This document shows, one piece after another, positions 1-16,775 of a DNA stretch of 35,389 bases. The stretch covers positions 1 to 35,389 of the forward strand of contig JAHWJI010000015.1 of assembly GCA_019348495.1 (NCBI GenBank), read 5' to 3'. Source of the DNA: Actinomycetota bacterium (GTDB lineage Bacteria > Actinomycetota > Acidimicrobiia > Acidimicrobiales > CADCSY01). How positions within the stretch are numbered: position 1 is the first letter of the stretch; every line of letters begins with the position of its first letter. The notes beneath the pieces are model-generated. The model saw only the letters and a program-made list of their open reading frames with translations. It did no database searches and was not told the DNA's origin. Position numbers and translations under genes: made by a program.

Positions 1-231
1 GGCCCTGGCATGCGGGCGGTGATCGAACGCTTGCTGGCCTCGCTGCCTGTTCCGGTCGTCGTCGACGCCGACGCGCTGAACCTGCTCGGCACCGAGCTCG
101 TGCGCGTGACCGCCGGGGCCGCCGGTCCTCGCGTGTTGACACCACACCCCGGGGAGATGGCGCGCCTGCTCGGCGTCGAGATCCCGGACGTGCAGCGCGA
201 TCGCCTGGGAGCGGCCCGGCGCCTCGCTGCC
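1..231 (+). pseudogene. nnrD: NAD(P)H-hydrate dehydratase fragment (NnrD, interior piece)
   Basis: The frame is open from base 1 and reads like the ribokinase-type domain of ADP-dependent (S)-NAD(P)H-hydrate dehydratase, which repairs hydrated NAD(P)H. Visible signatures are [12 protein letters not shown] (about residues 19-30) and [13 protein letters not shown] (about 46-58), both typical of this family. The 5' part lies outside the window. After the residues [11 protein letters not shown] (near base 230) family-like sequence stops. The expected VVLKG stretch and the GxxD catalytic region are missing, and the frame continues only as low-complexity read-through of an opposite-strand gene until a stop at 381. 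The gene is therefore broken here, by rearrangement or by an assembly join. The identity of the fragment is fairly secure; the cause of the break is not. Confidence 0.7.
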
Positions 232-345
232 GGAGCTGCCCAGGGCCCACACCAGGGCAGCCATCGCAGCGAGGCCGGCGACGACGATGAACGGCGTCGT
301 ACCGCTCCTGGTGGCGCGCCGGGGAGAACGCTTCTTCTTGGTCAC
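220..345 (-). pseudogene. 5' end of a membrane-anchored protein, truncated at the nnrD junction
   Basis: On the minus strand a GTG at 345 follows a strong Shine-Dalgarno (AAGGAG, 6 nt away). It opens a frame with a textbook anchor N-terminus: a basic stretch [15 protein letters not shown], then a hydrophobic segment beginning at [17 protein letters not shown], then a Gly/Ser linker. After about 40 residues the frame runs into the antisense of the nnrD fragment, so only the start of the gene remains. It lies downstream of csoR-copA and the small CxxC protein on the same strand, 157 bp after the latter. Short-anchored thioredoxin-fold or DUF3105-like proteins begin this way, but nothing diagnostic is left. 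The exact end of its own sequence, somewhere in 205-235, cannot be fixed. Confidence 0.55.
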
Positions 346-502: not shown

Positions 503-760
503 CTAGGCCAGTTGCGGGGGTCGGTCGAAGACGGCCGCTCGCAGCAGGCCGGTCATGACCAGGCGTCGGAGGCGCACTCGCTGCTCCAAGAGCACGGCGA
601 CGTAAGCGAACCCTGCGAGCACCACGAAGGTGCACAGGGGGCCAGCGGCGGTGGCTGGGCCACAGTCGCCGCAGGGGGCCGCGCCCATGCCGGGCATCAG
701 CACGGGCAGCCCGATGATCACCACCAGCACCACCAGGGCGACGAGGAGAACCTTCTTCAT
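503..760 (-). CDS. Small two-span membrane protein with an extracytoplasmic CxxC, in the copper operon
   Basis: An 85-residue protein starting [20 protein letters not shown] first hydrophobic span covers about residues 4-24, followed by a Met/Cys loop ([16 protein letters not shown]) with a CGDC pair and another Cys at about 43. A second span covers about 43-60, and the tail is basic. Its ATG at 760 overlaps the TGA of copA by 4 nt, so translation is almost certainly coupled to the copper ATPase. I do not recognise a named family. Met and paired Cys in a loop next to a Cu(I) exporter suggest metal handling or a role as an exporter accessory, but this is inference from position and composition only. 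Confidence 0.75.
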
Positions 761-3054
761 GGTCGCTTCATGGACGCTTCATGGTCGTGTCCCAAGGTAG
801 GGGTGTAGGAACCGGCGGCCACGGCCGGACGGGGCGGGCGGCGGAAGCGGTAGAGGCGCAGGCTGTTGGTGACGACCGACACGCTCGAGAACCCCATGGC
901 GGCGCCGGCCAGGATGGGGTTGAGGAGCCCGAGGGCGGCCACGGGGATGAGCACCACGTTGTAGCCGAAGGCCCAGCCGAGGTTCTGGAGGATGGTACGG
1001 AACGTCCGGCGGGAGAGGCGGATGGCGGTGGCCACGCCCTCGAGCTCGGCCGACAGCAGGGTGATGTCGGACGACTCGATGGCGACGTCGGTACCCGTCC
1101 CGATGGCGATGCCGAGGTCGGCCTGGACCAGGGCGGGGGCGTCGTTCACGCCGTCACCGACCATGGCCACGACCCGTCCCTCCTCCTGCAGCCGGCGGAC
1201 CTCGTCCACCTTGTCTTCGGGCAGCACCTCGGCGAGCACCCGGTCGATGCCGACCTGGGCGGCGATGGACGCCGCCGTGCGTTGGTTGTCGCCGGTGATC
1301 ATCACCACCTCGATCCCCAGCGCCTGAAGGTCGGCGACGACCGCCGGAGCGTCGTCGCGGAGGGTGTCGGCCACGGCCAGAACACCGCGGACCCGGCCGC
1401 CCCAGCCGGCGAGGATGGCGCTCTTGCCCTCGCCTTCCAGGCGCTCGGCAGCGGCATCGACATCGGTACAACCCATTAGCCCCGCTTCGGCCATGAGCTT
1501 GCGCCGGCCGACGTGGACCACCTCGTCGTCGACGGTGGCTCTTACGCCGTGGCCGATGATGGCCTCGAAACGAGCGGCGGCGGGCACCGAGCCCCACCGC
1601 TCCCTGGCGCCGTCGACGACCGCCCGGCCAACGGGGTGCTCGGAGCCCTGTTCCACGGCGGCGGCTCGGCGCAACAGGTCCTCGGCGTCGACGCCGTCGG
1701 CAGGCACGACGTCGGTGAGGGCCATCTCGCCTCGAGTCAGGGTGCCGGTCTTGTCGAACACCACGGTGTCGATGCGCTTGGAGCGCTCCAGCACCTCGCC
1801 ACCCTTGATGAGCACGCCCATGGACGCCCCCCGGCCGGTGCCGACCATGATGGCGGTGGGGGTGGCCAGCCCCAGCGCACAGGGGCAGGCGATGATCAGC
1901 ACGGCCACCGCCGCCACCAGCCCGGCCGTGGCGTCGCCGCCGATCAGCCACCAGGCCAGGAGCGTGAGCACGGCGACGAGCGCCACCACGGGCACGAAGA
2001 CCCCCGAGATGCGATCGGCCAGGCGCTGGACCGGCGCCTTGGTGCCCTGGGCGTCCTCCACCAGGCGCACGATCTGGGCCAGCGCCGTGTCGGACCCGAC
2101 CGCTGTCGCCTGCAAGGTCAGCACGCCCTGGGCGTTGACGGTGCCCCCCGCCACCCGGTCGCCAGCCTTCTTGTCGACCGGCACCGACTCGCCCGTGAGC
2201 ATGGACTCGTCGACCGCCGAGGCGCCGTCGACCACCTCGCCGTCGACCGGGATCTTCTCGCCGGGGCGGACCCGGAGCAGATCGCCGACCCGGACGTCCT
2301 CGACCGGCACCATCCGCTCCTCGCCGTCGGTGACCACGCGGGCCTCCTTGGCACCGAGCTCGAGCAGGGTGCGGATGGCCCGGGAGGCTCGTCCCTTGGC
2401 CCGGGCCTCGAAGTACCGGCCGAGGAGCAGGAAGGCGATGATCAGGGCGGCGGTGTCGAAGTAGTGATCGGCGTGGGGCGGGCCGAGCACCACCTGGTAG
2501 ACGGAGAAGCTGAAGGCGGCCAGCGTGCCCATGGCGATGAGCGTGTCCATGTTGGCTTGGCGGCTCCGGGCCCGCACCGCCGCCTGGTGCAGGAACGGCC
2601 ACCCCGCCCAGAACTGCACCGGGACGGTGAGGGCGAGCGCGCTCCAGCGGGCCCACGGCTCGTGCATGAAGGCCATGGACAGCACCAGCACCGTGATCCC
2701 GAGCGGCCAGGCGACCAGCACCCGGCGCAGCCACATCCGCTGAAGGATGTCCTCGGTGTCGACCTCCTCGGCCTCATGGGAGGGCTCCGCCGGGCTGAGG
2801 CCGTACCCGGCCTTGCCCACGGCGGCGACCAGGTCGTCGGCTGACACCTGGTCGGGGTCGAAGGCGATGGTCGCCTTGCCGGTGGCGAAGTTCACCCTGG
2901 CCTCGGCCACGCCCGGCTGGCGGGCCAGCACCTTGTTGACGCGCGCCGCGCACGACCCGCAGGTCATGCCCGACACGGTGAACTCCAGCTCGGTGGTGTC
3001 TCCCGGCACCCGGCTCTCGGTCTCGGTCTGGGTCTGGGTCTGGGTCTGGGTCAT
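757..3054 (-). CDS. copA: Copper-exporting P1B-type ATPase (CopA/CtpV type)
   Basis: A 765-residue ATP-driven Cu(I) exporter of the inner membrane. Domains in order: a short Thr/Gln repeat at residues 2-14, an N-terminal heavy-metal-associated domain with GMTCGSC at 29-35, and membrane spans from about 110 to 215. Then come the actuator domain with TGES (287-290), the metal-binding CPC (390-392), phosphorylation motif DKTGT (434-438), the HP pair (473-474), TGDN (587-590) and GDGVND (633-638). YN at 699-700 and Met720-SS at 723-724 match the Cu(I)-selective subgroup. The ATG at 3054 is chosen because AGGAGGAG precedes it and it overlaps the csoR stop by 4 nt; the frame is open 43 codons further upstream, inside csoR. 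The C-terminus has a GHDHE stretch. It is followed by a coupled small CxxC protein. Confidence 0.95.
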
Positions 3055-3365
3055 CGATTCTCCTCCTGCGCCAGCGTCAACTCGGGACCGGGACCGGTGG
3101 CGATGCGGTCGTAGCGCAGCGCCTCCATGAGCTCGTCGACGATCTCCTCGGTCCGCCCGGCGACCATGGCAGCGGCCACGCACGTCTCCAGGTGGTTGCG
3201 AAGGACGATCCGGCTGGCCCGTTCCAAGGAGCCCTGTACCGCCGAGAGCTGCTTCATGACCTCGGGGCAGTAGGTGTCGTCCTCGACCATCCTGAGCACG
3301 GCGTCGAGATGGCCCCGCGCCGTCTTGAGGCGGTTCACCACCGCTCCTTGATGAGCTTCCTTCAC
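3051..3365 (-). CDS. csoR: Copper-sensing transcriptional repressor, CsoR family
   Basis: A 104-residue all-helical repressor that releases DNA when it binds Cu(I). With the GTG at 3365 as residue 1, the Cu ligands are Cys33, His58 and Cys62. The 25- and 4-residue spacings equal those of the M. tuberculosis CsoR Cys36-His61-Cys65 triad. The frame is open further upstream (ATG at 3434). That start would add an unrelated N-terminus and place the operator inside the coding region, whereas GTG at 3365 lies 7 nt after a TAGGAT box and gives the usual family length. It is the first gene of csoR-copA-CxxC protein and overlaps copA by ATGA. Autoregulation through the inverted repeat at 3379-3393 is expected. 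Confidence 0.9.
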
Positions 3366-3372
3366 ACCACTG

Positions 3373-3400
3373 ATCCTACCCACCTGGGGTGGGCCTTCCA
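3373..3400 (-). promoter_or_regulatory. csoR promoter with CsoR-type operator between -35 and -10
   Basis: Read on the minus strand: TGGAAG (3400-3395), a 16-bp spacer, then TAGGAT (3378-3373), with GTG 7 nt further on. That spacing implies a leaderless transcript. The spacer holds the inverted repeat CCCACC-TGG-GGTGGG (3379-3393), close to the known mycobacterial CsoR site with its CCCACC and GGTGGG arms. Repressor binding there would block RNA polymerase directly. Confidence 0.75.
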
Positions 3401-3646
3401 CCGTTGCTCGCCCTATGCTGATACGGACACTCATCTCGCTACCGGTGACCGTCGCGTGAAAAGGGGGGACTTGGCGAACGCCGCCATCCATCCCCTCGTC
3501 TCGTGCTCGAATGAGCTTGAGCAACGGGGTAGGGCCGGACGCCGGGACGAGTTCGCAGGCCTGGCTGCAGGAGGGATCGAGCCATCACCAACGATGAGCT
3601 GAGAGACGACCAACAGGGTTCTGAGGCTGGCGCTCGTCCTGCACTG

Positions 3647-5147: not shown

Positions 5148-5217
5148 GCCCCGCAGGCGCAGCACCTGGTGACACCCTGATCCAGCCCGAAGTCACCGGC
5201 GGTCTCGACAACAGGGA

Positions 5218-5835
5218 TCAAGCGAAAGGGCCCTCACCGTCATGCCACTGGGCGTCCTGCCATGCCTGGTGGATCTCGCGGCGCAGCCGACCGCGATCGA
5301 GGACCGGGAGGCCCTGCTTTCGGCCCAAGCCCGGAGCTCGGCGGTCGATGGAGCAGGTTGAGGAGGGGCTTTGGCGGCGCCGTGCTCGCCCATCCCGATC
5401 CGCTCGAGGGTGGGGCGCTCGTCGCTTGCCCATGACCGGGCGGCGGCGAGGTAGCGGTAGGTCCACTCCTTGGCCAGCTTGCGGGTCTCGCAGAACGCGA
5501 TCGGGATGCTGGGCCAGCGGACCTGCAGCTCGGCCAGGCCGTCGGCGACGAGCGCCGGCCGTACTCGCTCGAGGGCGAAGATCTTGGAGTAGCGGTCCTC
5601 CACGACGACTGCGGCGCGGGGGCAGGGTGGCCAGCTCGCCAAGGCCGTAGCGCAGCCGGCCGCCGATCAGGCTGGCCACGAGATCGGGCACGGACTTGCG
5701 CTCGACCGCGACGATCAGCTTGCCGTCGACGAGGACCGCGTAGTCCCCGCAGGGCAGGCCCGCTCGCGGGTGCGCGGCGACTGCCAGAACTCAACGACGT
5801 GGTGGACCCGAGGAGCGCCTCTCGCCAGGCCACCG
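5218..5835 (-). pseudogene. Decayed ERCC4-domain nuclease gene
   Basis: Four minus-strand pieces form one protein when joined. (a) VVEFWQSPRTRERA, near 5800-5765. (b) LPCGDYAVLVDGKLIVAVERK through GGRLRYGLGELATLP, to about 5623. (c) RAAVVVEDRYSKIFALERV through AELRAWAE, about 5617-5320. (d) GLPVLDRGRLRREIHQAWQDA and on, to the TGA at 5218. Piece b-c carries the ERCC4 nuclease signature (GDY, then VERK, then VEDRYS), and piece d resembles an Lsr2-like C-terminal helix region. Between b and c there is one extra G in a five-G run (5618-5622). Between c and d one base is missing near 5316-5320. Between a and b about 40 codons expected in the family are gone. The two later shifts cancel each other, so sequencing error is possible for them, but not for the deletion. 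Confidence 0.7.
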
Positions 5836-5967
5836 GGCGTCGCCCGCGGCTGCTGAGCCAGAGCCACCTCGAGGGAACCCCGAGCTCGCCGTGGCGGTGG
5901 CCAGCCCCGTAGCCCTTTCCAGACGGCTGCGGCTCGGCCGGGTGGTGGGGGACGGGGAGGGCCGTGC

Positions 5968-6198
5968 TCAATGGGAACCGGCAGGCATCTCCTCGGTGAC
6001 GTCGGCACCCATGTTGGCGTGCCCTCCGGCCTGGAGCCGCAGGGCGATCATGCCCAGGGCAACGGCCGCGATCAGGGCGATGAACACCACCACGACCCTG
6101 CTTCCGTCCCTTACGGGGGGACCGGTGTACCGAGCCGGCCCCGTCTCCTGTCGCAGGCCGCCGGCACTCTCGTCGCTCGACACGCCCGGAGCGCTCAT
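5968..6198 (-). CDS. Small single-span membrane protein coupled to the DUF305 lipoprotein
   Basis: A 76-residue protein: a hydrophilic N-terminal half, one membrane span at about residues 34-54 (VVVVFIALIAAVALGM), and a short tail containing HANMGADVTEEM. Its ATG overlaps the TGA of the DUF305 gene (ATGA), so they are translated together. The short tail with His and Met just outside the span could contact metal or the lipoprotein; this is speculation. No named family recognised. Confidence 0.7.
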   Translation of the reverse strand: MSAPGVSSDESAGGLRQETGPARYTGPPVRDGSRVVVVFIALIAAVALGMIALRLQAGGHANMGADVTEEMPAGSH

Positions 6199-6770
6199 GC
6201 CTCGAGCAGCCGGTCGATCTCTTCGATCTCCGCTCGCTGGGTGTCGACGATCCTCTGGGCCAGGTCCTTGGCCGCGGGGAACTGGCCCGCCTCCAGCTCC
6301 TGTTCGGCCATCATGACGGCGCCGACGTGGTGCTCGCGCATCTGGGTGAGGAACATCTCGTCGAACTCGCCTCCGGACGCCGCTTGGAGCGAGGCCATCT
6401 GCTCCTCGCTCATCATCCCGTTCATCTCGCCACCACCGCCCATGTCCATACCGCCCATCGAGCCTTCGACCGGCTCGCCCCAGTCCTCCAGCCAACCTCT
6501 CATCATCTCGATCTCCGGTGCCTGTGCCGCCTTGATCTCGGCCGCCAGGTCCTTCACCTCCTGGGACTCGGCCCGCTCGGCCGCAAGGTCGGACATCTCG
6601 ACGGCTTGCTGGTGATGGGGGATCATCATCTGGGCGAAGGTCACGTCGGCGGTGTTGAAGCTCTCCGGGCTCGACTGCTCCCCCTGTTCGATGACCCCTC
6701 CGGTGTCCTGGCTGCCGCAGGCGGTGAGAAGAGCGGCGATGACGAGCAGTACGCCACCAAGACGTCTCAC
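6195..6770 (-). CDS. DUF305-family lipoprotein, Met/His-rich
   Basis: A 191-residue secreted lipoprotein. The GTG at 6770 is selected because GGAGGT lies 8 nt upstream and it gives a classical lipoprotein signal (RRLGGVLLVIAALLTACGS, lipobox Cys at 18). Two DUF305 repeats are visible: MMIPHHQQAVEMS with HisHis at 52-53 and MREHHVGAVMMAEQEL with HisHis at 147-148. Between them is a Met/Gly-rich linker (about residues 104-120). DUF305 proteins are ferritin-like four-helix proteins often found beside copper resistance genes. The paired His and Met residues suggest extracytoplasmic metal binding, consistent with copA and csoR nearby. The longer open frame upstream of this start lacks a ribosome site. 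It is coupled to a 76-residue membrane protein. Confidence 0.88.
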   Translation of the reverse strand: MRRLGGVLLVIAALLTACGSQDTGGVIEQGEQSSPESFNTADVTFAQMMIPHHQQAVEMSDLAAERAESQEVKDLAAEIKAAQAPEIEMMRGWLEDWGEPVEGSMGGMDMGGGGEMNGMMSEEQMASLQAASGGEFDEMFLTQMREHHVGAVMMAEQELEAGQFPAAKDLAQRIVDTQRAEIEEIDRLLEA

Positions 6771-6987
6771 GGGGGGGTACCTCCTGATCGGGGATGGCGA
6801 GGCGTTGGCCACCTCGACCTTGTGCACCGGGATGGTACCGACAGGAGGGGCCGGTTCGGCAGGGTAGGCCAGGCAGGGCCAGCGCCCGACACCTCCTCTT
6901 AGCATCCGGGGATGAGAGGTGGGTGGATCGCAGCGGGGATGACGTCGGCCGCTCCAGGCTGATGGCCGAGACCAGCAATAGCGCCAC

Positions 6988-7001
6988 TACCCTGGCCGCC
7001 G
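6988..7001 (+). promoter_or_regulatory. Putative leaderless promoter -10 of def
   Basis: TACCCT (6988-6993) lies 8 nt before the ATG of def, with no Shine-Dalgarno between them. This matches the TANNNT pattern seen before several other genes in the window. No convincing -35 box. Confidence 0.4.
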
Positions 7002-7544
7002 ATGGCCCCCTACGACATCCGCCTGGTGGGTGACCCGGTCCTGCGCCAGCCGGCGACCGAGGTGACCGACATCGACGCCCGCCTGGTGCGTCTGGCCGAG
7101 GACATGATCGTGACCATGCACGAAGCCCCGGGCATCGGCCTGGCTGCCCCCCAGGTTGGTGTGCAGAAGCGCATGTTCGTCTACGACCTGCACGACGAGC
7201 AGGGGTCCCACGTCGTGGTCAACCCGGTGATCAGCGAGACCCGGGGCGAGTGGGTCTACGAGGAGGGCTGCCTCTCGGTCCCGGGCCTGTCGTGGGAGAT
7301 CGTGCGGCCCAAGGAGGTGCACCTCAGCGGCATCGACCTCGACGGCAACCAGGTCTCCTTCGAGGCCGACGACCTGCTGGCCCGCATGTTCCAGCACGAG
7401 GTCGACCACCTCGACGGCATCCTGCTCCTGGAGCGCCTCGACCCCGCCCAGGCCAATGAGGCCAAGCGGGTGCTGCGCGAGCAGGCCCTGGCCGCCGGCG
7501 AAGGAGAGACCCGCCGGCGTCTGCGCATGCCCGGTCGAGCCTGA
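7002..7544 (+). CDS. def: Peptide deformylase
   Basis: A 180-residue metalloenzyme that removes the formyl group from the N-terminal methionine of new proteins. All three family motifs are intact: GIGLAAPQVG (residues 44-53), EGCLSVPG (about 88-95, Cys metal ligand) and HEVDHLDG (about 131-138, two His ligands and the catalytic Glu). The length is usual for the actinobacterial type. It is directly followed by and overlaps fmt, the enzyme that adds the formyl group, a classic pairing. A TACCCT box 8 nt before the ATG suggests a leaderless start. Confidence 0.97.
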   Translation: MAPYDIRLVGDPVLRQPATEVTDIDARLVRLAEDMIVTMHEAPGIGLAAPQVGVQKRMFVYDLHDEQGSHVVVNPVISETRGEWVYEEGCLSVPGLSWEIVRPKEVHLSGIDLDGNQVSFEADDLLARMFQHEVDHLDGILLLERLDPAQANEAKRVLREQALAAGEGETRRRLRMPGRA

Positions 7545-8439
7545 GGTCCTGGCCTCGCCGGCGCCGCCTCGGCGGCTCGTCTACCTGGGCAGCCCCGAGG
7601 CTGCGGTCGTCCCCCTGCAGGGCTTGGTGGCCGCCGGCTTCGACATCGCCCTCGTCGTCTCCCAGCCCGACCGGAAGCGGGGCAGGGGCTCGGGCCTCGT
7701 CGCCACCCCGGTGAAGATCGCCGCCCTCGAGCTCGGCCTGCCCGTCAGCGACCGGGTGGACGACATCCTCGCCGCCGGTGCCGACCTCGGCGTCGTGGTG
7801 GCCTACGGGCGCCTGATCCGGCCCCACGTGCTGGACCGCCTCGACCTCGTCAACCTCCACTTCTCCCTCCTGCCCCGTTGGCGGGGGGCGGCGCCGGTCG
7901 AGCGGGCCATCCTCGCCGGCGACAAGGAGACCGGGGTCTGCCTCATGGGCCTGGAGGAGGGCCTCGACACCGGACCGGTCTACGCCTGCGAGCGGGTGGT
8001 CATCGGGCCCGAGGAGACGGCCGACGAGCTGCGATCCCGCCTGGTGGCCCTGGGCAGTGACCTGCTGGTGACGGCACTGCACGCCGGGCTGGGCGAGGCT
8101 CGGCCCCAGGCCGGCACGCCCACCTACGCAGCCAAGCTCGAAAGTGGCGAGCTCCGTCTCGACTGGACCCGACCGGCGGTGGAGCTGCACCGGTTGGTCC
8201 GACTCGGGGGAGCATGGACGACGTTCCGGGGCCGGCGCCTCAAGGTGCGACGGGCCCGGCTGGTCCCGCCCGGACAGGGTGCTGACCTCGCACCCGGGGT
8301 CCTCGACGACACCCGGGTCGGGGCCGGTGCGGGCAGCCTGGAGCTCGTGGAGGTCCAGCCTGAAGGCAAGGCGCCCCAGGCGGCGGCCGCGTGGCGCAAC
8401 GGCGCCCGACCCGTCGCCGGTGAGCGCCTGGGTGATTGA
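7456..8439 (+). CDS. fmt: Methionyl-tRNA formyltransferase
   Basis: Transfers a formyl group from 10-formyltetrahydrofolate to Met-tRNA(fMet). The family core begins at RRLVYLGSPEAAVVPL. The catalytic region reads NLHFSLLPRWRGAAPV (Asn-His pair), followed by ETGVCLMGLEEGLDTGPV with the catalytic Asp; the C-terminal tRNA-binding domain covers about the last 100 residues. The start is a problem. From the ATG at 7456 (89-nt overlap with def) to the conserved core there is no ATG, GTG or TTG in frame, so either this ATG is used, giving about 36 extra unrelated residues, or a rare start such as CTG at 7549 just past the def stop is used. The coordinates follow the only standard start. Function is certain; the start is not. 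Confidence 0.88.
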   Translation: MRPSGCCASRPWPPAKERPAGVCACPVEPEVLASPAPPRRLVYLGSPEAAVVPLQGLVAAGFDIALVVSQPDRKRGRGSGLVATPVKIAALELGLPVSDRVDDILAAGADLGVVVAYGRLIRPHVLDRLDLVNLHFSLLPRWRGAAPVERAILAGDKETGVCLMGLEEGLDTGPVYACERVVIGPEETADELRSRLVALGSDLLVTALHAGLGEARPQAGTPTYAAKLESGELRLDWTRPAVELHRLVRLGGAWTTFRGRRLKVRRARLVPPGQGADLAPGVLDDTRVGAGAGSLELVEVQPEGKAPQAAAAWRNGARPVAGERLGD

Positions 8440-8464
8440 GGAGGGCCGGTAGCTATCGTCGCCG

Positions 8465-8477
8465 TAGGCTCTGAAGC
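8465..8477 (+). promoter_or_regulatory. Putative leaderless promoter -10 of the MoaB-like gene
   Basis: TAGGCT (8465-8470) is 7 nt before the GTG at 8478 and no Shine-Dalgarno is present. No good -35 at 16-18 bp; a TTGAGG at 8436-8441 is too far away. Confidence 0.45.
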
Positions 8478-8963
8478 GTGCACGCGGGAGAAGACGAGCC
8501 CCTGTCGGCCAAGGTGCTCACCGTCTCGGACGGGGTGGTGGCAGGCACGAGGGCCGACCGCTCCGGGGCGGCACTGGTCCAGCGACTCGGACTCGCCGGC
8601 TTCGACGTCGTCGACCACTCGTCGGCGGCCGACGGGATCGACTCGGTGTCCTCTGCCCTGGTCGGTCACTGTCGCGACTTCGCAGGGTTGGTCGTGACCA
8701 CGGGAGGGACCGGCTTCAGCCCCCGTGACCTGACCCCCGAGGGCACCCGGGCGGTGCTCGAGCGGGAGGCCCCCGGGCTGGCCGAGGCCATGCGCCTGGT
8801 CAACCCGCTGGGCCGGCTCTCGAGGGGCGTGGCCGGCACCGTGGGCCGGGCCGTCGTGCTCAACACACCGGGGTCCACGTCGGGGGCGGTGGAGTGCCTG
8901 GAGGCGGTGCTCGACATCGTGCCCCACGCCCTCCGCCTCTTGGCCGGCCGGCGGGAGCACTGA
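8478..8963 (+). CDS. Molybdenum cofactor biosynthesis protein, MoaB/MogA family
   Basis: A 161-residue single-domain protein of the family that adenylates molybdopterin before molybdate insertion. Signatures: VLTVSDGVVAGTRAD at the start, TTGGTGFSPRDLTPE (about residues 74-88) and the late PGSTSGA motif (about 136-142). No other molybdenum cofactor gene is in the window, so MoaB and MogA cannot be separated from context. GTG start behind a TAGGCT box; the next gene, ribD, begins 2 nt after its stop, so it may lead the riboflavin operon. Confidence 0.88.
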   Translation: MHAGEDEPLSAKVLTVSDGVVAGTRADRSGAALVQRLGLAGFDVVDHSSAADGIDSVSSALVGHCRDFAGLVVTTGGTGFSPRDLTPEGTRAVLEREAPGLAEAMRLVNPLGRLSRGVAGTVGRAVVLNTPGSTSGAVECLEAVLDIVPHALRLLAGRREH

Positions 8964-8965
8964 CG

Positions 8966-10048
8966 GTGGCTGGCGTGCCCCTCTCGGATGTCGACACCCC
9001 CACGTCGGTGCCCGGCGACGAGCAGGCCATGGCCGCAGCCCTAGCCCTGGCCGCGGGTGCCCGAGCCCGGGCCCATCCCAACCCGTGGGTCGGCGCCGTA
9101 CTGCGAAGCGTCGACGGGGGGGTCTTCGTGGGGGCCACCGCCGCGCCCGGTGGTCCCCACGCCGAGGTGGCCGCCCTGGCCGGCGCCGGAGGTGCCGCCC
9201 GGGGGTCGACCATCTGGTCCACCCTCGAGCCCTGCGCCCACCACGGCCGTACCCCCCCTTGCGCCGACGCCCTGATCGCCGCCGGGGTCAGCCGGGTGGT
9301 GGTTGCCCTAGAAGACCCCGACCCCCGTGTGGCGGGGCTGGGACTGCAACGGTTGCGCGACGCTGGCATCGACGTCGTGTCGGGCGTGGGCGTCGAGGCC
9401 GCCACGGACCAGCTCGCCCCCTACCTCAAGCACCGCCGCACGGGCCGTCCCTGGGTGGTGCTCAAGCTGGCGGCCACCCTCGACGGGCGCACGGCCGCCG
9501 CCGACGGGTCCTCCCGGTGGATCACCGGTCCCGAGGCCCGGGCCGACGCCCACCGCCTGCGGGCCGAGAGCGACGCGGTGATCGTGGGCGCGGGCACGGT
9601 GCGCAGCGACGATCCCAGCCTCACCGTCCGCCTGGCCGAAGGGCCTGACCCGATGCGCGTGGTGCTCGGTCGTGCCCCGGTGGAGGCGAAGGTGCATCCC
9701 GCCCTGGAGCTGGAGGGAGACCTCGGCGCCGTCCTCGACCGGCTGGGGGAGCGGGGCTGCGTCCAGGTGCTCGTCGAGGGGGGCGCGCACGTGGCCGGCG
9801 CGTTCCACCGAGCGGGACTGGTCGACCGCTACGTCCTCTACCTTGCGCCCCGGCTGCTCGGGGGCGACGACGGGCGGGCCCTGTTCGCCGGCGTGGGCGC
9901 GGCCACCCTGGCCGATGCCTGGGAGGGTGACATCGTCGAGGTCAGCCGCCTCGGTCCCGACCTCAGGGTCGAGCTCGCCCCCGCAGTCGAGCCCGCCGAG
10001 CTGGCCCCCGCAGTCGAGCCCGCCGCGGTCGAGCCGGAACGGGCATGA
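8966..10048 (+). CDS. ribD: Bifunctional riboflavin biosynthesis deaminase/reductase
   Basis: A 360-residue enzyme for riboflavin steps two and three. The N-terminal cytidine-deaminase-like domain has the zinc site HAE at residues 65-67 with Cys90 and Cys99 in EPCAHHGRTPPC. The C-terminal RibD reductase domain begins near RPWVVLKLAATLDGRTAA and has the NADPH-binding VLVEGGAHVAGAF motif. The middle of the reductase domain is shorter than in classical RibD. GTG at 8966, 2 nt after the upstream stop, is chosen; GTG at 9008 is an alternative. The last 26 residues come from a tandem DNA repeat (LAPAVEPAE twice) and look like an added tail. First gene of ribD-ribE-ribBA-ribH. Confidence 0.95.
   Translation: MAGVPLSDVDTPTSVPGDEQAMAAALALAAGARARAHPNPWVGAVLRSVDGGVFVGATAAPGGPHAEVAALAGAGGAARGSTIWSTLEPCAHHGRTPPCADALIAAGVSRVVVALEDPDPRVAGLGLQRLRDAGIDVVSGVGVEAATDQLAPYLKHRRTGRPWVVLKLAATLDGRTAAADGSSRWITGPEARADAHRLRAESDAVIVGAGTVRSDDPSLTVRLAEGPDPMRVVLGRAPVEAKVHPALELEGDLGAVLDRLGERGCVQVLVEGGAHVAGAFHRAGLVDRYVLYLAPRLLGGDDGRALFAGVGAATLADAWEGDIVEVSRLGPDLRVELAPAVEPAELAPAVEPAAVEPERA
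9971..10024 (+). repeat. Two tandem 27-bp units in the 3' end of ribD
   Basis: Units 9971-9997 and 9998-10024 differ at one base (GAGCTCGCC versus GAGCTGGCC). They encode ELAPAVEPA twice, producing a Pro/Ala/Glu tail after the folded domain. Confidence 0.85.
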
Positions 10049-10050
10049 GC

Positions 10051-10095
10051 GTCGCCGGAGGCGACGCCTTGCCCTTCCCGGCGAGCGAAGCGAGC
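10051..10095 (+). repeat. Dispersed hairpin-plus-core repeat, copy A (ribD-ribE gap)
   Basis: A hairpin GTCGCC-GGA-GGCGAC (10051-10065) is followed 15 nt later by the core GCGAGCGAAGCGAGC (10081-10095), filling the 53-bp gap between ribD and ribE. The same core lies at 24064-24078 and, inverted, at 25753-25767, each next to a GC-rich hairpin. Confidence 0.75.
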
Positions 10096-10101
10096 CTGTA
10101 G

Positions 10102-10665
10102 ATGTTCACCGGCCTGGTAGAGGAGGTGGGCACGGTCGCGGCCCACACCGGAGCCCGCCTGCGCATCACCGCCGGCAAGGTCCTCGCCGACGCCGGCGTA
10201 GGCGACTCCATCGCCGTCGACGGCTGCTGCCTCACCCTGGTGGCCATGGGGCAGAGATGGTGGGAAGCCGACCTCAGCGACGAGACGCTGCGCCGCACCA
10301 CCCTGGGCATGCTGGCGCCGGGCGACCCCGTCAACCTGGAGCGCCCGCTGCGCCTGGCCGACCGCCTGGGGGGCCACCTGGTCCAGGGCCACGTCGACGC
10401 CGTGGGCGATGTCCTCGCCCCCCCTCCCACCCTGGGGGTCCGTCTGCCCGGCCACCTCGCCCGCTACGTGGTCGAGAAGGGTGCCGTCGCCGTCGACGGC
10501 GTCAGCCTCACCGTGGTCGAGGCCACCGACGATGCCTTCACCGTCGCCATCGTTCCCCACACCGCGGCGGCCACGACGCTGGGGTCCAAGCGTCCCGGTC
10601 ACCAGGTCAACCTCGAGGTCGACCTGGTGGCCAAGTACGTGGAACGCCTGGTGGCCGCCCGATGA
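10102..10665 (+). CDS. ribE: Riboflavin synthase alpha subunit
   Basis: A 187-residue enzyme that dismutates two 6,7-dimethyl-8-ribityllumazines to riboflavin. It starts with the diagnostic MFTGLVEEVG and is built of two lumazine-binding repeats: the first about residues 1-90 with AVDGCCLTLV, the second about 95-185 beginning GGHLVQGHVDAVG with AVDGVSLTVV. Length and both halves are normal. It follows ribD after a 53-bp gap filled by a hairpin repeat; its TGA overlaps the ribBA ATG. No Shine-Dalgarno of note; GAGCC precedes the ATG. Confidence 0.96.
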   Translation: MFTGLVEEVGTVAAHTGARLRITAGKVLADAGVGDSIAVDGCCLTLVAMGQRWWEADLSDETLRRTTLGMLAPGDPVNLERPLRLADRLGGHLVQGHVDAVGDVLAPPPTLGVRLPGHLARYVVEKGAVAVDGVSLTVVEATDDAFTVAIVPHTAAATTLGSKRPGHQVNLEVDLVAKYVERLVAAR

Positions 10666-11924
10666 GCCTGCCCCGCAGCACCCGCCTGGCCGGCATCGAC
10701 GAGGCGGTGGCCGCCATCGCCCGGGGTGAGGTCGTGGTGGTGGTCGACGACGAGGACCGCGAGAACGAGGGCGACCTCGTCATGGCGGCCGAGTTCGCCA
10801 CTCCCGAGCGCATCACCTTCTTCGTGCGCCACACCTCCGGGGTCATCTGCATGCCCCTGGAAGGATCGCGCCTCGACGAGCTGGAGCTGCCGCTCATGGT
10901 GGCCGACAACACCGAGAGCCAGCGCACCGCCTTCACCGTGTCGGTCGACTACCGGCCCACCACCACCACCGGCATCTCCGCCGCCGACCGCTCGGCCACC
11001 ATCCGGGCCCTCATCGACCCGTCCACCCGACCCCACGACCTGGCCCGACCCGGCCACATCTTCCCGTTGCGCTACCGCACCGGGGGTGTCCTCAAGCGGG
11101 CCGGCCACACCGAGGCGGCGGTCGACCTGGCCCGTATGGCCGGGCTGCGACCCGCAGGCGTGTTGTGCGAGGTCGTCAACGAGGACGGCACCATGGCCCG
11201 GATACCCGAGCTCGAGCGCTTCTGCGCCACCCACGGACTGCTCATGATCTCCATCGCCGACCTGGTGCGCCACCGGCGCCAGTCCGAGCGCCTGGTGCGA
11301 CGCATCGCCGAAGCCCGCATTCCCACGGAGTGGGGCGACTTCACCTGCTACGTCTACGAGTCGGTCCTCGACGGCGAGCAGCACGTAGCCATGGTCAGAG
11401 GCGCGGTCCAGGGCCAGGACGACGTGTTGGTCCGGGTCCACAGCGAGTGCCTGACCGGTGACGTCTTCGGCTCGCTGCGTTGCGACTGCGGGGTCCAGGT
11501 CGACGCGGCCATGCAGCGCATCGCCGACGAGGGCCTCGGCGTGGTGGTCTACCTGCGGGGCCACGAGGGGCGGGGCATCGGCCTGGGCCACAAGATCCGG
11601 GCCTACGAGCTCCAGGACCGGGGACGCGACACCGTGGACGCCAACGTCGAGCTGGGATTCCCGGCCGACACCCGGGAGTACGGCATCGGCGCCCAGATCC
11701 TGGTCGACCTGGGGATCACCACCATGCGCTACATGACCAACAACCCCGCCAAGTACGGCGGGCTCGAGGGCTACGGCCTCAAGATCGTCGAGCGCGTGGC
11801 GCTGGAGTCGATCCCCAACCCGGAGAACATCCGCTACCTGCGCACCAAGCGGGAGCGCATGGGCCACCTGCTACCCCATCTGGATGGCCGTGGCGCCGAC
11901 GACGTGGAAGGCTCTGAACCATGA
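10662..11924 (+). CDS. ribBA: Bifunctional DHBP synthase / GTP cyclohydrolase II
   Basis: A 420-residue fusion that supplies both riboflavin precursors. The N-terminal RibB domain (about 1-205) makes 3,4-dihydroxy-2-butanone 4-phosphate from ribulose 5-phosphate and shows DDEDRENEGDL with acidic metal ligands plus the HTSG and HIFPL motifs. The C-terminal RibA domain (about 208-400) opens the GTP imidazole ring. Its zinc cysteines sit in HSECLTGDVFGSLRCDCG, and the GHEGRGIGL loop holds the catalytic Arg. The start overlaps ribE by 4 nt (ATGA) and the stop overlaps ribH by 4 nt, so the set is translated as a coupled unit. Confidence 0.97.
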   Translation: MSLPRSTRLAGIDEAVAAIARGEVVVVVDDEDRENEGDLVMAAEFATPERITFFVRHTSGVICMPLEGSRLDELELPLMVADNTESQRTAFTVSVDYRPTTTTGISAADRSATIRALIDPSTRPHDLARPGHIFPLRYRTGGVLKRAGHTEAAVDLARMAGLRPAGVLCEVVNEDGTMARIPELERFCATHGLLMISIADLVRHRRQSERLVRRIAEARIPTEWGDFTCYVYESVLDGEQHVAMVRGAVQGQDDVLVRVHSECLTGDVFGSLRCDCGVQVDAAMQRIADEGLGVVVYLRGHEGRGIGLGHKIRAYELQDRGRDTVDANVELGFPADTREYGIGAQILVDLGITTMRYMTNNPAKYGGLEGYGLKIVERVALESIPNPENIRYLRTKRERMGHLLPHLDGRGADDVEGSEP

Positions 11925-12397
11925 GCACCTACGTCGGCCACCTGCGGGGCGAGGGCATCCGGGTGGCCCTGGCCTGCGCCCGCTTCAACGACCTGGTCAC
12001 CGAGCGCCTGTTGGCCGGGGCCCGCGACGGGCTGGCGCGCCACGGCGTGGACGAGGCTTCGATCACGGTGGTCTGGGCCCCCGGCGCCGTCGAGCTGCCC
12101 CTGGTGGCGCAGCGTCTGGCCGCCGCCGGTGAGGTCGACGCCGTCATCGCCCTGGGCGCGGTCATCAGGGGCGCCACCGACCACCACAGCCACGTGGGCG
12201 GTCAGTGCGCCGCCGGGCTCCAGCGCGTCGCCCTCGACACCGGGATACCCGTCGCCTTCGCCGTGCTCACCACCGACACCTTGGACCAGGCCCTGGAGCG
12301 GGCGGGGGCCAAGGCCGGCAACAAGGGCTACGAGGCGGCCGAGACCGCCCTGGAGATGGTCGACCTCCTCCGCCAGCTGCCCAAGGCCAGCCCCTGA
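11921..12397 (+). CDS. ribH: 6,7-dimethyl-8-ribityllumazine synthase
   Basis: A 158-residue enzyme that condenses the two riboflavin precursors; homologues form pentamers or icosahedral 60-mers. Family motifs: ARFND near residue 20, WAPGAVELPL for substrate contact, ALGAVIRGAT, then the loop with catalytic His, LTTDTLDQALERAG, and the GNKG phosphate site. The loop reads GATDHHSHVGGQ instead of the usual TPHYDYV type: the catalytic His position is kept but neighbouring residues are unusual. It overlaps ribBA by 4 nt and hisG by 1 nt (TGATG). Confidence 0.95.
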   Translation: MSTYVGHLRGEGIRVALACARFNDLVTERLLAGARDGLARHGVDEASITVVWAPGAVELPLVAQRLAAAGEVDAVIALGAVIRGATDHHSHVGGQCAAGLQRVALDTGIPVAFAVLTTDTLDQALERAGAKAGNKGYEAAETALEMVDLLRQLPKASP

Positions 12398-13272
12398 TGT
12401 TGCGGGTGGTGTTGCCCAAGGGGTCGCTGGAGCGGGCCACCCTGGAGCTGTTCGAGGCCGCCGACCTGGCCGTGAGCCGCAGCTCCGCTGTCGACTACAA
12501 GGCCACCATCGCCGACCCCCGAGTGGCCGACGTGCGCATCCTGCGTCCCCAGGAGATCCCCGTCTACGTGGCCGAGGGCCTCTACGACCTGGGCATCACC
12601 GGTCGGGACTGGATCGAGGAGACCGACAGCGAGGTCGTCACCCTCGGCGAGCTGCACTACTCCAAGGCGACAGCCCGTCCCATCAACGTCGTGCTGGCCG
12701 TGGCCGAGGAGGCGCCCTGGGCCAAGGTGGGCGACCTGCCTGCGGGGGTGCGGGTCTCCACCGAGTACCCCGGCCTGACCCGGCGCTTCCTCGCCACCCA
12801 CGGGGTCGACGCCGAGGTTCGCCTCTCGCACGGGGCCACCGAGGCCAAGATCCCCGACATCGCCGACGCCGTGGTGGAGATCACCGAGACAGGTCGGGCC
12901 CTGCGGGCGGCCAAGCTGCGCATCCTCGACACGATCCTGGTGAGCTTCACCGAGCTCATCGCCAACCCCGCCGCCTACGCCGACCCGGCCAAGGCCCACG
13001 CCATGCGCCAGCTCCACACCCTGCTCCAGGGTTCGCTGGAGGCGAGGGGCAAGGTGCTGGTCAAGCTCAACGTGGCCCAATCCGACCTCGAAGCGGTCAT
13101 CGCCATCCTGCCCTCCATGAAAGCCCCCACCGTGTCCAAGCTGTTCGGAGCCGACGGCTACGCGGTGGAGACGGTGGTGGCCAAGGTCGACATCAACGTC
13201 CTCATCCCCGCTCTGTCCGACGCCGGGGCCAGCGACATCATCGAGGTTCCCCTCTCCAAGATCGTCCACTGA
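12397..13272 (+). CDS. hisG: ATP phosphoribosyltransferase, long form
   Basis: A 291-residue first enzyme of histidine synthesis (ATP plus PRPP). It starts LRVVLPKGSLE, has the PRPP-binding EITETGRALRAA region, and carries a C-terminal regulatory domain of about 80 residues (from KAPTVSKLFGADGYAVETVV). This makes it the HisG_L type, which binds histidine itself and does not need HisZ. It overlaps the ribH stop by one base. No other his gene is in the window; its place at the end of the riboflavin operon is fixed by overlap, perhaps because both routes draw on the pentose-phosphate pool (inference). Confidence 0.96.
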   Translation: MLRVVLPKGSLERATLELFEAADLAVSRSSAVDYKATIADPRVADVRILRPQEIPVYVAEGLYDLGITGRDWIEETDSEVVTLGELHYSKATARPINVVLAVAEEAPWAKVGDLPAGVRVSTEYPGLTRRFLATHGVDAEVRLSHGATEAKIPDIADAVVEITETGRALRAAKLRILDTILVSFTELIANPAAYADPAKAHAMRQLHTLLQGSLEARGKVLVKLNVAQSDLEAVIAILPSMKAPTVSKLFGADGYAVETVVAKVDINVLIPALSDAGASDIIEVPLSKIVH

Positions 13273-13273
13273 C

Positions 13274-13486
13274 GTGCGCCGGTCGGCGGGATCGGTGGCC
13301 AGCTTCGACGAGCGGGCGGGGTGGGGGAGGGTTCGGGGCGACGACGGCCAGGAGCTGTTCTTCCACTGCACTGCCGTGGCCGACGGCAGTCGCAGCATCG
13401 CCCAGGGGGCTCGGGTGGACTACGAGGTGGTGCCCGGCCACCTCGGCCGCTGGGAGGCCTGGGATATCGAGCCCGCTCGTCGCTGA
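13274..13486 (+). CDS. Small cold-shock-domain-like protein
   Basis: A 70-residue protein with GTG start one base after the hisG stop. The whole length resembles a cold-shock (CSD) beta-barrel: GSVASFDERAGWGRVRGDDG, then ELFFHCTAV, then GARVDYEVVPG. The RNP1 equivalent is GWGRV rather than KGFGFI, and RNP2 is LFFHC rather than VFVHF, so several aromatic RNA-contacting positions are changed. It probably binds single-stranded nucleic acid weakly or has diverged. It is the last gene of the plus-strand run, converging on the ABC transporter operon 27 bp away. Confidence 0.75.
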   Translation: MRRSAGSVASFDERAGWGRVRGDDGQELFFHCTAVADGSRSIAQGARVDYEVVPGHLGRWEAWDIEPARR

Positions 13487-13513
13487 CGCCTGCCCGAGGG
13501 GGCGGTGCTGCCG

Positions 13514-14392
13514 TCAGACGCCGACGTTCTCCTTGCGGGCGGCGGTCTCGGGCGCCACCAGGTCCTCGGGCCCGCCCTTGACCTCGATGGAGCCGCCGTA
13601 GCGCCGGCGCTGGCGGACCTCCAGGCGCCGGGCCACCCGGCTGAGCGCCATGTTCACGGCGATGTACATGACGGCCACCGCGATCAGGGCCTGGAGGAGG
13701 TTGCCGTCGAAGTTGCCGGTGAGCTGACCCCGGCGCAACAGCTCCTCGTACTGCACGAAGAAGCCCAACGACGTGTCCTTGAGCAGGGCGATGAACAGCC
13801 CCACGTTGGCCGGGATCACGTCGCGCAGGGCCTGGGGCAGGACCACCAGGCGCATGGCCTGGCCGTCGGTCAGGCCCACGGCCACGGCTGCCTCGCGCTG
13901 GCCCCGGTCGAGGGAGAGGATCCCGGCCCGGAAGATCTCGGCCAGCACTGCGCTGTTGTAGACGGCCAGGCCAAGGACCAGGTACCAGAACAGGGGCAGA
14001 CGGACCCCCAACCGGGGCAGCCCGAAGGCGGAGAACAGGATCAACAGCAGCAACGGGAAGCCCCGGAAGAACTCCACGTACGAGGCCGCCAGCCAGCGGA
14101 CGGGGCGGTTGCGGGACAACCGGCCCAGGGCCATGACGGCGCCGATGGTCACGGCTCCGACCATGCCCGCGGCCGCAGCCTTGACGGTGTTGGCCAAACC
14201 CCCGAGCAAGAAGCCCACGACGGCGGGCTCGGCCAAGATGGACCACTTCTCGGCGTCGAGCTGGCCCCGGTCGGCGAAGCGTTGGATCGCCACCACGACC
14301 AGGGCGGCGACCCCGAGTGAGGCGACCACCGATCCGACCAGGACCCGGCGCCGCCCCCGCGGGCCCAACTCGTCACCGATCAGCGCCGTCAC
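13514..14392 (-). CDS. Polar amino-acid ABC transporter permease (GluD-like)
   Basis: A 292-residue inner-membrane subunit of a His/Glu/Gln-type uptake system. An N-terminal span at about residues 18-37 is followed by an extra loop, then the transmembrane core. The EAA loop that docks the ATPase reads EAAVAVGLTDGQAMRLVVLPQA. The signature SYVEFFRGFPLLLLILFSAFG matches the HisM/GlnP family. GTG at 14392 overlaps the TGA of the upstream permease (GTGA). The C-terminus has a basic stretch (RRLEVRQRRRYGGS). With the next three genes it matches the order gluA-gluB-gluC-gluD of Corynebacterium; the substrate cannot be fixed from sequence. Confidence 0.92.
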   Translation of the reverse strand: MTALIGDELGPRGRRRVLVGSVVASLGVAALVVVAIQRFADRGQLDAEKWSILAEPAVVGFLLGGLANTVKAAAAGMVGAVTIGAVMALGRLSRNRPVRWLAASYVEFFRGFPLLLLILFSAFGLPRLGVRLPLFWYLVLGLAVYNSAVLAEIFRAGILSLDRGQREAAVAVGLTDGQAMRLVVLPQALRDVIPANVGLFIALLKDTSLGFFVQYEELLRRGQLTGNFDGNLLQALIAVAVMYIAVNMALSRVARRLEVRQRRRYGGSIEVKGGPEDLVAPETAARKENVGV

Positions 14393-15033
14393 CGCTTGAT
14401 CGCCACCCGGCGCTCGATGACGCCGACGACCAGGCCCGTGGGCAAGGTGAGCAGGAGGTACGCCACTGCTGCTGCGACGAAGACGGGGATGAACTCGGCG
14501 GTCTCGGTGGCGATCTGGAACGTCGTTCCGGTCAGCTCGATGACGGAGATGGAAAAGGCGATCGAGCTGTTCCTGATGAGGGCCGACAGCAGGCTCCCCA
14601 GGGGCCCCACCACCGCCCGCAACGCCTGGGGTAGCACGACCATGCCCAGCATCTGTGCGAAGCTCAGCCCCAGGGTGCGAGCCGCCTCCACCTGCCCCCG
14701 GGCCACGGTGTTGAAGCCCGCCCGCACCGTCTCGGCCACGAAGGCCCCGGTGTAGACCGACAGGATGATGACCGCCGAAGCGAACTTCGGCAGGATGATA
14801 CCGATGCTCGGGAAGCCGAAGTAGAACACCACGAACAGCACCGTCAGCGGGCAGTTGCGCACCACCTCGACGTAGACGGCGCCGGCGCCTCGCAACGGGG
14901 GGATGGGACCCACCCGCAACGAGGCGACGGCGACGCCGATGACGAAGGCCCCCACCCACGACAGCGCCGTGAGCGAGAGCGTCGTGGTGAGGCCTTGGAC
15001 GAAGCGGTCGAAGTTCTCCAGGACGATGTCCAC
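14389..15033 (-). CDS. Polar amino-acid ABC transporter permease (GluC-like)
   Basis: A 214-residue membrane subunit with the HisM/GlnP signature YVEVVRNCPLTVLFVVFYFG and the EAA docking loop VEAARTLGLSFAQMLGMVVLP. About five spans are expected. The GTG start at 15033 lies 43 nt downstream of the binding-protein gene. The stop overlaps the second permease start, so the two permeases are made in equal amounts and probably form a heterodimer. Confidence 0.92.
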   Translation of the reverse strand: MDIVLENFDRFVQGLTTTLSLTALSWVGAFVIGVAVASLRVGPIPPLRGAGAVYVEVVRNCPLTVLFVVFYFGFPSIGIILPKFASAVIILSVYTGAFVAETVRAGFNTVARGQVEAARTLGLSFAQMLGMVVLPQALRAVVGPLGSLLSALIRNSSIAFSISVIELTGTTFQIATETAEFIPVFVAAAVAYLLLTLPTGLVVGVIERRVAIKR

Positions 15034-15076
15034 GGGCGGCCGACCTGGAGCGGACTACTGGGCTGGCGGGGCGGGC

Positions 15077-15970
15077 CTAGTAGCGGTCGACCGGCGGCGG
15101 CTCGGGGATCTCGTCGGTCACCGCGCCCACCGTGCGCTTGAAGGCTTCGGTCCACTCGCCGTTGGCGTAGATCTCTTCGAGTCGGTCGTTGATGAAGGTG
15201 CGGAACTGGTCGTCACCCTTGGGGATGCCGATGCCGTAGGGCTCGGTGGTGAAGGGATCGCCCACGACCTCGAACACCTCGGCCCCGTACTGCTCCACCA
15301 GACCGAGGAGGATGACGTTGTCGGTGGTCACGGCGTCGACCCGGCCGTCGCGCATGGCGTCGGCGCACTTGGTGTAGACGTCGAACTCGGTGACCTCGGC
15401 CCCGGGTGCGTTGGTCCGCACGTTCTGGAGGGGCGTGGAGCCGGAGACCGAACACACCCGCTTGCCGTTGAGGTCATCGAGGCCGCCGATGTCCAGTGGG
15501 TTGCCGGTCGGCACCATGATGTCCTGGCCGGCCACGTAGTAGGGGCCGGCGAAGTCGATCTTCTCCTTGCGGGCATCGTTGATGGTGTACGTGGCCACCA
15601 CCATCTGCACCGTGCCCTCCTGGATGGCCGTCTCCCGGATGGCCGACGGCGTCTCCACGAACTCGATCTCCACGTCGGGCCCGATGGCCTCGACGATGAG
15701 CTTGGCGATCTCCACGTCGAAGCCTTCCACCTCACCCGTGCGGGGGTTGGTCTGGCCGAAGAGGCGCTGGTCGAACTTGGTGCCCACGGTGATGGTGCCG
15801 GCCTCTTGGATCTCGGCCATGGTCGAGCCTTCGGGGTGCTCGGGCACTTCGGTGGCGTCACCGGCGCCCGTCCCGGTGTCGACCTCGTCGTCGCCGCCGC
15901 CGCAGGCGGCGACGAGCACGACCAAGACCAGGACGAGCAGGCCCAGGCGGTGGCTTCGGATGCGGGACAT
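15077..15970 (-). CDS. Amino-acid ABC transporter substrate-binding lipoprotein (GluB-like)
   Basis: A 297-residue extracytoplasmic binding protein. The lipoprotein signal is LGLLVLVLVVLVAACGGG with lipid-attachment Cys at about 23, followed by an Asp/Glu/Thr-rich linker. The type-3 solute-binding fold begins at AGTITVGTKFDQRLFGQ and has GFDVEIAKLIVEAIG and the YYVAGQDIMVP hinge region. Two Cys residues (in GKRVCSVSG and VYTKCADAM) could form a disulfide. The ATG at 15970 has AAAGGAG 8 nt upstream; the open frame further upstream is not coding-like. The family takes up glutamate, glutamine or aspartate; specificity is not decided here. Confidence 0.94.
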   Translation of the reverse strand: MSRIRSHRLGLLVLVLVVLVAACGGGDDEVDTGTGAGDATEVPEHPEGSTMAEIQEAGTITVGTKFDQRLFGQTNPRTGEVEGFDVEIAKLIVEAIGPDVEIEFVETPSAIRETAIQEGTVQMVVATYTINDARKEKIDFAGPYYVAGQDIMVPTGNPLDIGGLDDLNGKRVCSVSGSTPLQNVRTNAPGAEVTEFDVYTKCADAMRDGRVDAVTTDNVILLGLVEQYGAEVFEVVGDPFTTEPYGIGIPKGDDQFRTFINDRLEEIYANGEWTEAFKRTVGAVTDEIPEPPPVDRY

Positions 15971-16031
15971 GTCATGTCTCCTTTGTTGGGTGGGATGGGG
16001 AGGTCCGGTGAGGGTGGGCGGGCCAGGATCG

Positions 16032-16775
16032 TCAGTGGGCCAGGATCTTGGACAGGAAGTCTCGGGCCCGGTCGGTCTCAGGGGCGGAGAAGAACCGATC
16101 GGGGGACGCCGTCTCGACGATGCGACCGTCGTCCATGAACACGACACGCTGGGCGGCGGAGCGGGCAAAGCCCATCTCGTGGGTGACCACGATCATGGTG
16201 GTGCCCTCGCTGGCCAGCCCGATCATCACGTCGAGCACCTCGGCGATCATCTCGGGATCGAGGGCGGAGGTGGGCTCGTCGAAGAGCATGAGCGTGGGCT
16301 CCATGGCCAGGGCCCGGGCGATGGCCGCCCGTTGTTGCTGGCCCCCCGAGAGCTCGGCCGGGTAGCGCTCCGCCTTGTCGGCGATGCCCACCCGCTCGAG
16401 CAGGGCCATGGCCCGCTCCCGGGCGGCCGCCTTGGGCACGCCCTTGGCCTTGACCGGCCCGAGGGTGACGTTGGCCAGGACGCTCTTGTGGGCGAAGAGG
16501 TTGAAGCTCTGAAAGACCATCCCCACCTGGGCCCGGACCCGGGCCAGCTCCTTGCCCTCGTCGGGCAGCGGGACGCCGTCGAGGTGGATCGTGCCGCTGT
16601 CGATTGCCTCGAGGCGGTTGATGCAGCGACAGAGCGTGGACTTGCCCGAGCCGGAGGGACCGATGACCACGACGACCTCGCCGGCGTCGACCGACAAGTC
16701 GATGTCGCGCAGCACGTGGAGCTGGTCGAACCACTTGTTGACCTTGTCCAGGACCACAACCGGCGTGCCCGTCAT
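16032..16775 (-). CDS. Polar amino-acid ABC transporter ATP-binding protein (GluA/GlnQ)
   Basis: A 247-residue cytoplasmic ATPase. Walker A GPSGSGKST (about residues 39-47), Q-loop VFQSFNLF, signature LSGGQQQR, Walker B LMLFDEPTSALD and the switch His in VVTHEMGFA are all intact and follow the GlnQ/HisP wording. The start follows GGAGG closely. It is the first transporter gene; the binding protein, two permeases and their couplings follow on the same strand. The DUF1844-like gene lies 32 bp upstream and may share its transcript. Confidence 0.95.
   Translation of the reverse strand: MTGTPVVVLDKVNKWFDQLHVLRDIDLSVDAGEVVVVIGPSGSGKSTLCRCINRLEAIDSGTIHLDGVPLPDEGKELARVRAQVGMVFQSFNLFAHKSVLANVTLGPVKAKGVPKAAARERAMALLERVGIADKAERYPAELSGGQQQRAAIARALAMEPTLMLFDEPTSALDPEMIAEVLDVMIGLASEGTTMIVVTHEMGFARSAAQRVVFMDDGRIVETASPDRFFSAPETDRARDFLSKILAH

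Follow-up and report, generated by a model that had tools for sequence, protein, structure and literature searches.

A probable inter-organism assembly join between an nnrD fragment and a copper segment at a contig end

Metagenome assemblies are subject to chimeric contamination within a contig, in which the sequence of two organisms is present in one contig (PMC10978663). The junction analysed here lies between a fragment of an NnrD-type gene and a truncated gene at the edge of a copper segment. NnrD, which corresponds to the C-terminal NAD(P)H-hydrate dehydratase part of YjeF, is recognised by the Pfam Carb_kinase domain PF01256; the fragment shares the central part of this domain, including the DADAL motif. 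It differs from a complete NnrD in holding only profile positions 92-150 of 242, roughly one quarter of the domain, with both domain ends missing. The truncated gene probably codes for an F510_1955 family glycosylhydrolase (NCBIfam NF045728), a family name for which no paper was found in the literature library searched.

The window, i.e. the whole stretch of DNA analysed, comprises 35389 bases and is contig C66 in its entirety; its base 1 is base 1 of the contig. C66 belongs to a genome assembly of 2.21 Mb in 161 contigs, with an estimated completeness of 98% and an estimated contamination of 1.5%; its G+C, fragmentation and gene content suggest an actinobacterium-like metagenome assembly. Judged from the sequence, the join at about base 231 is most likely an artefact, an inter-organism assembly chimera at the contig end.

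Two genes cut at one point

The foreign-looking nnrD piece occupies positions 1..231 of the plus strand. Frame 1 is open from base 1, has no stop within its 77 codons, and matches PF01256 with an E value of 1e-10 and 41.9 bits against a cut-off of 27. Since window base 1 is also the first base of C66, the piece of about 231 bp is cut on both sides, its left end being the contig start and its right end the junction, and it would not be expected to yield a working enzyme. The right-hand limit was mapped by tblastn with the whole 126-residue plus frame as query. Of 118 nnrD-bearing loci offered, 113 aligned, and in 86 of these alignments the homology stops at residue 76 or 77, which corresponds to base 228-231. 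Five alignments that extend past residue 77 were picked for a residue-by-residue comparison; they show 38-45 identities in 69-76 aligned residues (54-61%) up to residue 77, but only 6-8 in 28-31 beyond it. The loss of homology at about base 231 agrees with the first-pass annotation, which had placed the end of the nnrD sequence near 230.

The opposite strand codes, at 232..345, for the N terminus of a membrane protein, made up of a charged tail and a hydrophobic anchor. The reading frame begins with a GTG at 345-343, and AAGGAG lies six bases before it (357-352). Its product has a positively charged tail followed by a single long hydrophobic stretch, after which the frame runs into antisense nnrD. 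The good minus-strand start noted earlier, with a run of some 40 codons, is present, the cut falling at about codon 38. Two unrelated genes, nnrD and the minus-strand gene, are both cut at about 231, as had been claimed from the first reading of the sequence.

The remaining 47-aa minus-strand piece has no NCBIfam match and so does not reach the cut-off of NF045728, a model that covers residues 56-275 of the corresponding protein of the same-genus genome G003, i.e. the part beyond the cut point. A search of 98 related genomes returned no clear relative of the 47-residue piece, only the piece itself and one weak match. This weak match, in genome G057 (E 0.0057, 35 residues), was rejected as a relative, as it covers only the anchor and the G057 ORF encodes a different, 338-aa protein; a match in the host genome itself (contig C159, E 0.28), which contains a stop, was discarded as chance.

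The assignment of the cut gene derives from its surroundings. Upstream of it lies the gene for a small membrane protein of 85 aa (503..760, minus strand), which is 58% identical to its G003 homologue over 84 residues. In G003, an intact gene for a 307-aa protein with a similar tail-plus-anchor start lies 156 bp beyond this small gene; the corresponding gap in the window measures 157 bp. NF045728 assigns this 307-aa protein to the F510_1955 family glycosylhydrolases, at 224 bits against a cut-off of 175. Among three genomes of the same genus, G003 is the only one with an F510 match, and it has the order and spacing seen in the window. In the fetched stretches of G006 and G011, no such small protein was found next to the F510 gene; the G011 contig starts at that gene. 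It is fairly likely that the cut gene belongs to the F510_1955 family, given its spacing, its overall layout and a gene order shared with one genome.

The host genome yielded no remainder of either cut gene. With the G003 protein as query, no remainder of the F510-type gene was detected there at E 0.01; the same query returned relatives in 7 of 40 genomes at E 1e-5, its own source included, those in G003, G006 and G011 being strong and the others weaker. Likewise, the missing part of nnrD, which the first-pass annotation had proposed to seek elsewhere in the genome, did not turn up: Carb_kinase matches occur at only two places in the host genome, the piece itself and an intact nnrD on contig C95.

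The junction zone extends over 221..241, with the likeliest breakpoint at about 228-235. It is very GC-rich, and as both genes read plausibly through about 221-240, they may overlap briefly there. Both strands keep an open frame across the join, which would also be compatible with a real junction. No second exact copy of the 24-mer 218-241 exists in the host genome, the nearest sequence, with 3 mismatches, being located on C95; nor was a shared k-mer that would account for the join found in that genome. A 21-mer of the junction is absent from viral contigs. An imperfect palindrome spans 221-275 and pairs in two blocks, of about 10 and about 7 bases; its left arm is formed by positions 221-230. 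A palindrome-driven mechanism was considered and not adopted, because the folding energy is ordinary (25 of 200 shuffles were as good); it is retained only in connection with a real junction, discussed below.

The copper segment and the conserved part of the contig

The first gene that clearly belongs to the copper segment encodes a CopA-like, copper-type P1B ATPase (757..3183, minus strand), with TIGR01525 and TIGR01511 above cut-off and the Pfam domains E1-E2_ATPase and HMA. A CsoR/RicR-type metal-sensing repressor is encoded at 3051..3524 of the same strand (Pfam PF02583, E 4.3e-24; an NF052430 match is far under its cut-off). The truncated minus-strand ORF adjoins the small membrane protein, an arrangement seen also for the F510 gene of G003, and the CopA gene comes next, in keeping with the initial proposal that the copper segment begins at the junction. 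The copper genes have relatives on contig C23 of G003, on contig C220 of G002 and in G013. The G002 contig (L165 1-631), related to the ATPase/CsoR region at 2755-3401 of the window, likewise starts inside the ATPase, as if copper regions tended to break assemblies, and the G003 copper ATPase (C23, L029 4847-7318) appears split over several frames.

From 6984 onward, C66 is syntenic with contigs of all three same-genus genomes: C6 of G003 (86% identity over 6984-16500), C18 of G001 (79-82%) and C111 of G002 (77-79%). The shared order runs to about 27250 in G003, where C6 ends, to 29300 in G001 and to 35000 in G002, and DNA identity across the syntenic part is 69-87% overall. This synteny indicates that the host side of the contig is genuine. 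Left of 6984, the gene order is not common to the fetched parts of the three contigs, save for 5253-5757, which is shared with G001. The copper region is therefore variable, and perhaps acquired, and positions 1-231 stand out from it.

Synteny with all three genomes begins at one place (6982-6984), beside a formyltransferase gene. Most of the sequence to the left is variable, and 6984 may be an insertion site for acquired genes. A nuclease-like gene at 5193-5971 of the minus strand is split over at least two frames (ORFs 5193-5642 and 5218-5691), while it forms a single 323-aa ORF in G001 (L162 1247-2218), which suggests decay of the gene or errors in the sequence. At the edge of the variable region away from the junction, a DUF305 protein (PF03713) is encoded at 6195-6905 of the minus strand; members of this family are often found near metal genes.

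The variable nature of the region bears on the strongest alternative to an assembly chimera, namely a real genomic junction, in which the copper segment would have moved into, or captured, a foreign nnrD fragment by illegitimate recombination and both genes would have been cut in the living organism. In favour of it, the contig is unlike its three same-genus counterparts left of 6984, apart from the short stretch shared with G001, which points to a variable and perhaps acquired copper region. Of 70758 centres in the window, the palindrome at 221-275, whose left arm coincides with the junction, is one of the three best, yet its folding energy is unexceptional (z -1.1). Several observations weigh against a real junction. 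The foreign part meets the contig end after only about 231 bp, and the copper-side genes that adjoin the junction have same-genus relatives. None of 72,556 plasmid records matches 80% of the first 8 kb by megablast; 35 records match parts of it, the five listed all within the ATPase. The window contains no tRNA genes either. Taken together, a real junction is unlikely. Its most specific form, an acquired copper segment with a trapped foreign nnrD fragment, joined by short-homology recombination at the palindrome within the anchor sequence of a surface protein of the copper island, is slightly more doubtful still. If a fragment had been trapped in this way, the join would record a transfer between distant lineages; if the join is real at all, it would illustrate, on a small scale, how illegitimate recombination can create an island edge.

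The lineage of the nnrD piece

The host genome has its own intact nnrD, coding for 456 aa, on contig C95, near genes whose ORFs read like a glmS-type gene, a CBS-domain protein, alanine racemase and tsaE. This copy is 68-78% identical to the three same-genus copies, compared with 59% identity, over aligned residues, between it and the nnrD piece. The piece was compared with 26 nnrD copies of the host's own genus, family and order, namely that of the host and 25 of 29 relative loci; L157, L159 and L160, which are partial, L158, which is weak, and loci from the class-wide DNA search were left aside. The piece contains the motif TPHPGE, which is present in none of the 26 copies. Their equivalent motif reads TPHDGE in 19, TPHEGE in 3, TPHLGE in 1 and TPHQGE in 1, and the pattern is unmatched in 2. 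TPHPGE is also absent from all 7 distinct readable places of the class or order that were initially omitted, and L036, L042, L158 and L159, which do not align at the motif region, are not counted there. In addition, the piece has a three-column insertion after RLLG that is absent from all 26 aligned copies.

The mean alignment score of the piece to the 12 copies of the host family is 132.3, versus 168.0-222.5 among those copies themselves; by mean score to all 26 it is third lowest of 27, and the two lower copies both come from outside the family. By motif and score, the nnrD piece therefore looks foreign to the host lineage, as far as can be read from its sequence. When identity is computed over aligned residues, with gaps ignored, its best single partner is nevertheless a same-family copy (L142 in G004, 46 of 72 residues, 64%), whereas the best outside sequence reaches 61%. 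By alignment score, L142 ranks far down and the best-scoring relative is 68th of 106. A tree of 107 sequences places the piece among the outside sequences with weak supports (0.63-0.92). The outside set of 80 sequences, all with TPHPGE, was chosen for likeness to the piece, partly via that motif, and both the tree placement and the score rank are therefore given little weight.

As to the source, the best 80 of 304 confirmed places in a species collection belong mainly to Deltaproteobacteria/Desulfobacterota, Acidobacteria and Rokubacteria, and also include Magnetococcales, Moorella and Paenibacillus. The first six protein matches listed show 49-57% identity; this taxon list is a lead rather than a placement, and the host's own genome may be absent among the matches listed. 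No near DNA match to the piece exists among 395 genomes of the class, the best match other than itself being 71% over query positions 15-175. Against plasmids, its protein matches 3 records, all from Vibrio and below 60% identity, with no near-identical source.

These comparisons also address the idea that the piece is native, in which case the host would have a further nnrD copy, in decay, next to the copper segment. Besides the main copy, 12 extra Carb_kinase matches occur in 11 of 30 genomes searched, 3 of them over cut-off, and the 64% identity to the same-family copy would suit a native origin. However, only one of the 12 extras is a strong match (G009, 81 bits), and it does not align with the piece at the motif. 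TPHPGE and the insertion after RLLG, both absent from the 26 aligned copies, a frame free of stops through 77 codons, and a mean family score lower than any of the 12 family copies has render a native copy very improbable.

A probable chimeric contig end and its known counterparts

Even less credible is that the whole of C66 is a contaminant of the bin and both genes stem from another organism. The estimated assembly contamination of 1.5% speaks for this reading, but the gene order from 6984 is that of the G002, G001 and G003 contigs at 69-87% DNA identity. The first-pass annotation had offered two readings of the junction, an insertion or rearrangement boundary and an assembly chimera. The contig-end position, the intact nnrD on C95, the unlike motif and score of the piece, and the fact that no remainder of either cut gene was found in the genome favour the chimera, and a rearrangement is less likely. 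Two lineages are apparent in one contig: a piece whose TPHPGE motif occurs in 0 of 26 relatives and whose family score lies below that of every family copy, and a contig that is syntenic with the host genus from 6984. The piece extends to the contig end at base 1 of C66, and the host possesses an intact copy of the intruding gene.

In an assembly chimera of this kind, the assembly would have broken within the minus-strand gene, and a short stretch of foreign sequence would have been attached at the end of C66. This piece would derive from a co-sampled bacterium of another lineage, joined either by the assembler or in a chimeric library molecule, presumably through a short shared GC-rich stretch somewhere within about 218-241. 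The true continuation of C66 would then be the rest of the minus-strand F510_1955-type gene, missing from the assembly, and no biological mechanism would be needed for the join. For annotation, this means that the first ~231 bases of the contig should not be read as biology, that no nnrD should be annotated beside the copper segment, and that the truncated minus-strand gene should be regarded as left incomplete by a contig break, not as a pseudogene.

With the F510_1955 family glycosylhydrolases (NF045728), the cut gene shares its position after a small protein, the spacing of 157 versus 156 bp, and the charged tail with one hydrophobic segment; this neighbourhood is common to the window and G003 only. 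It differs from them in that the anchor alone, about 38 codons, remains, without significant similarity to the anchors of G003, G006 and G011. The join as a whole resembles the chimeric within-contig contamination described in PMC10978663, in that the sequence of two organisms is joined, and beside it appears as an ordinary case with nothing distinctive.
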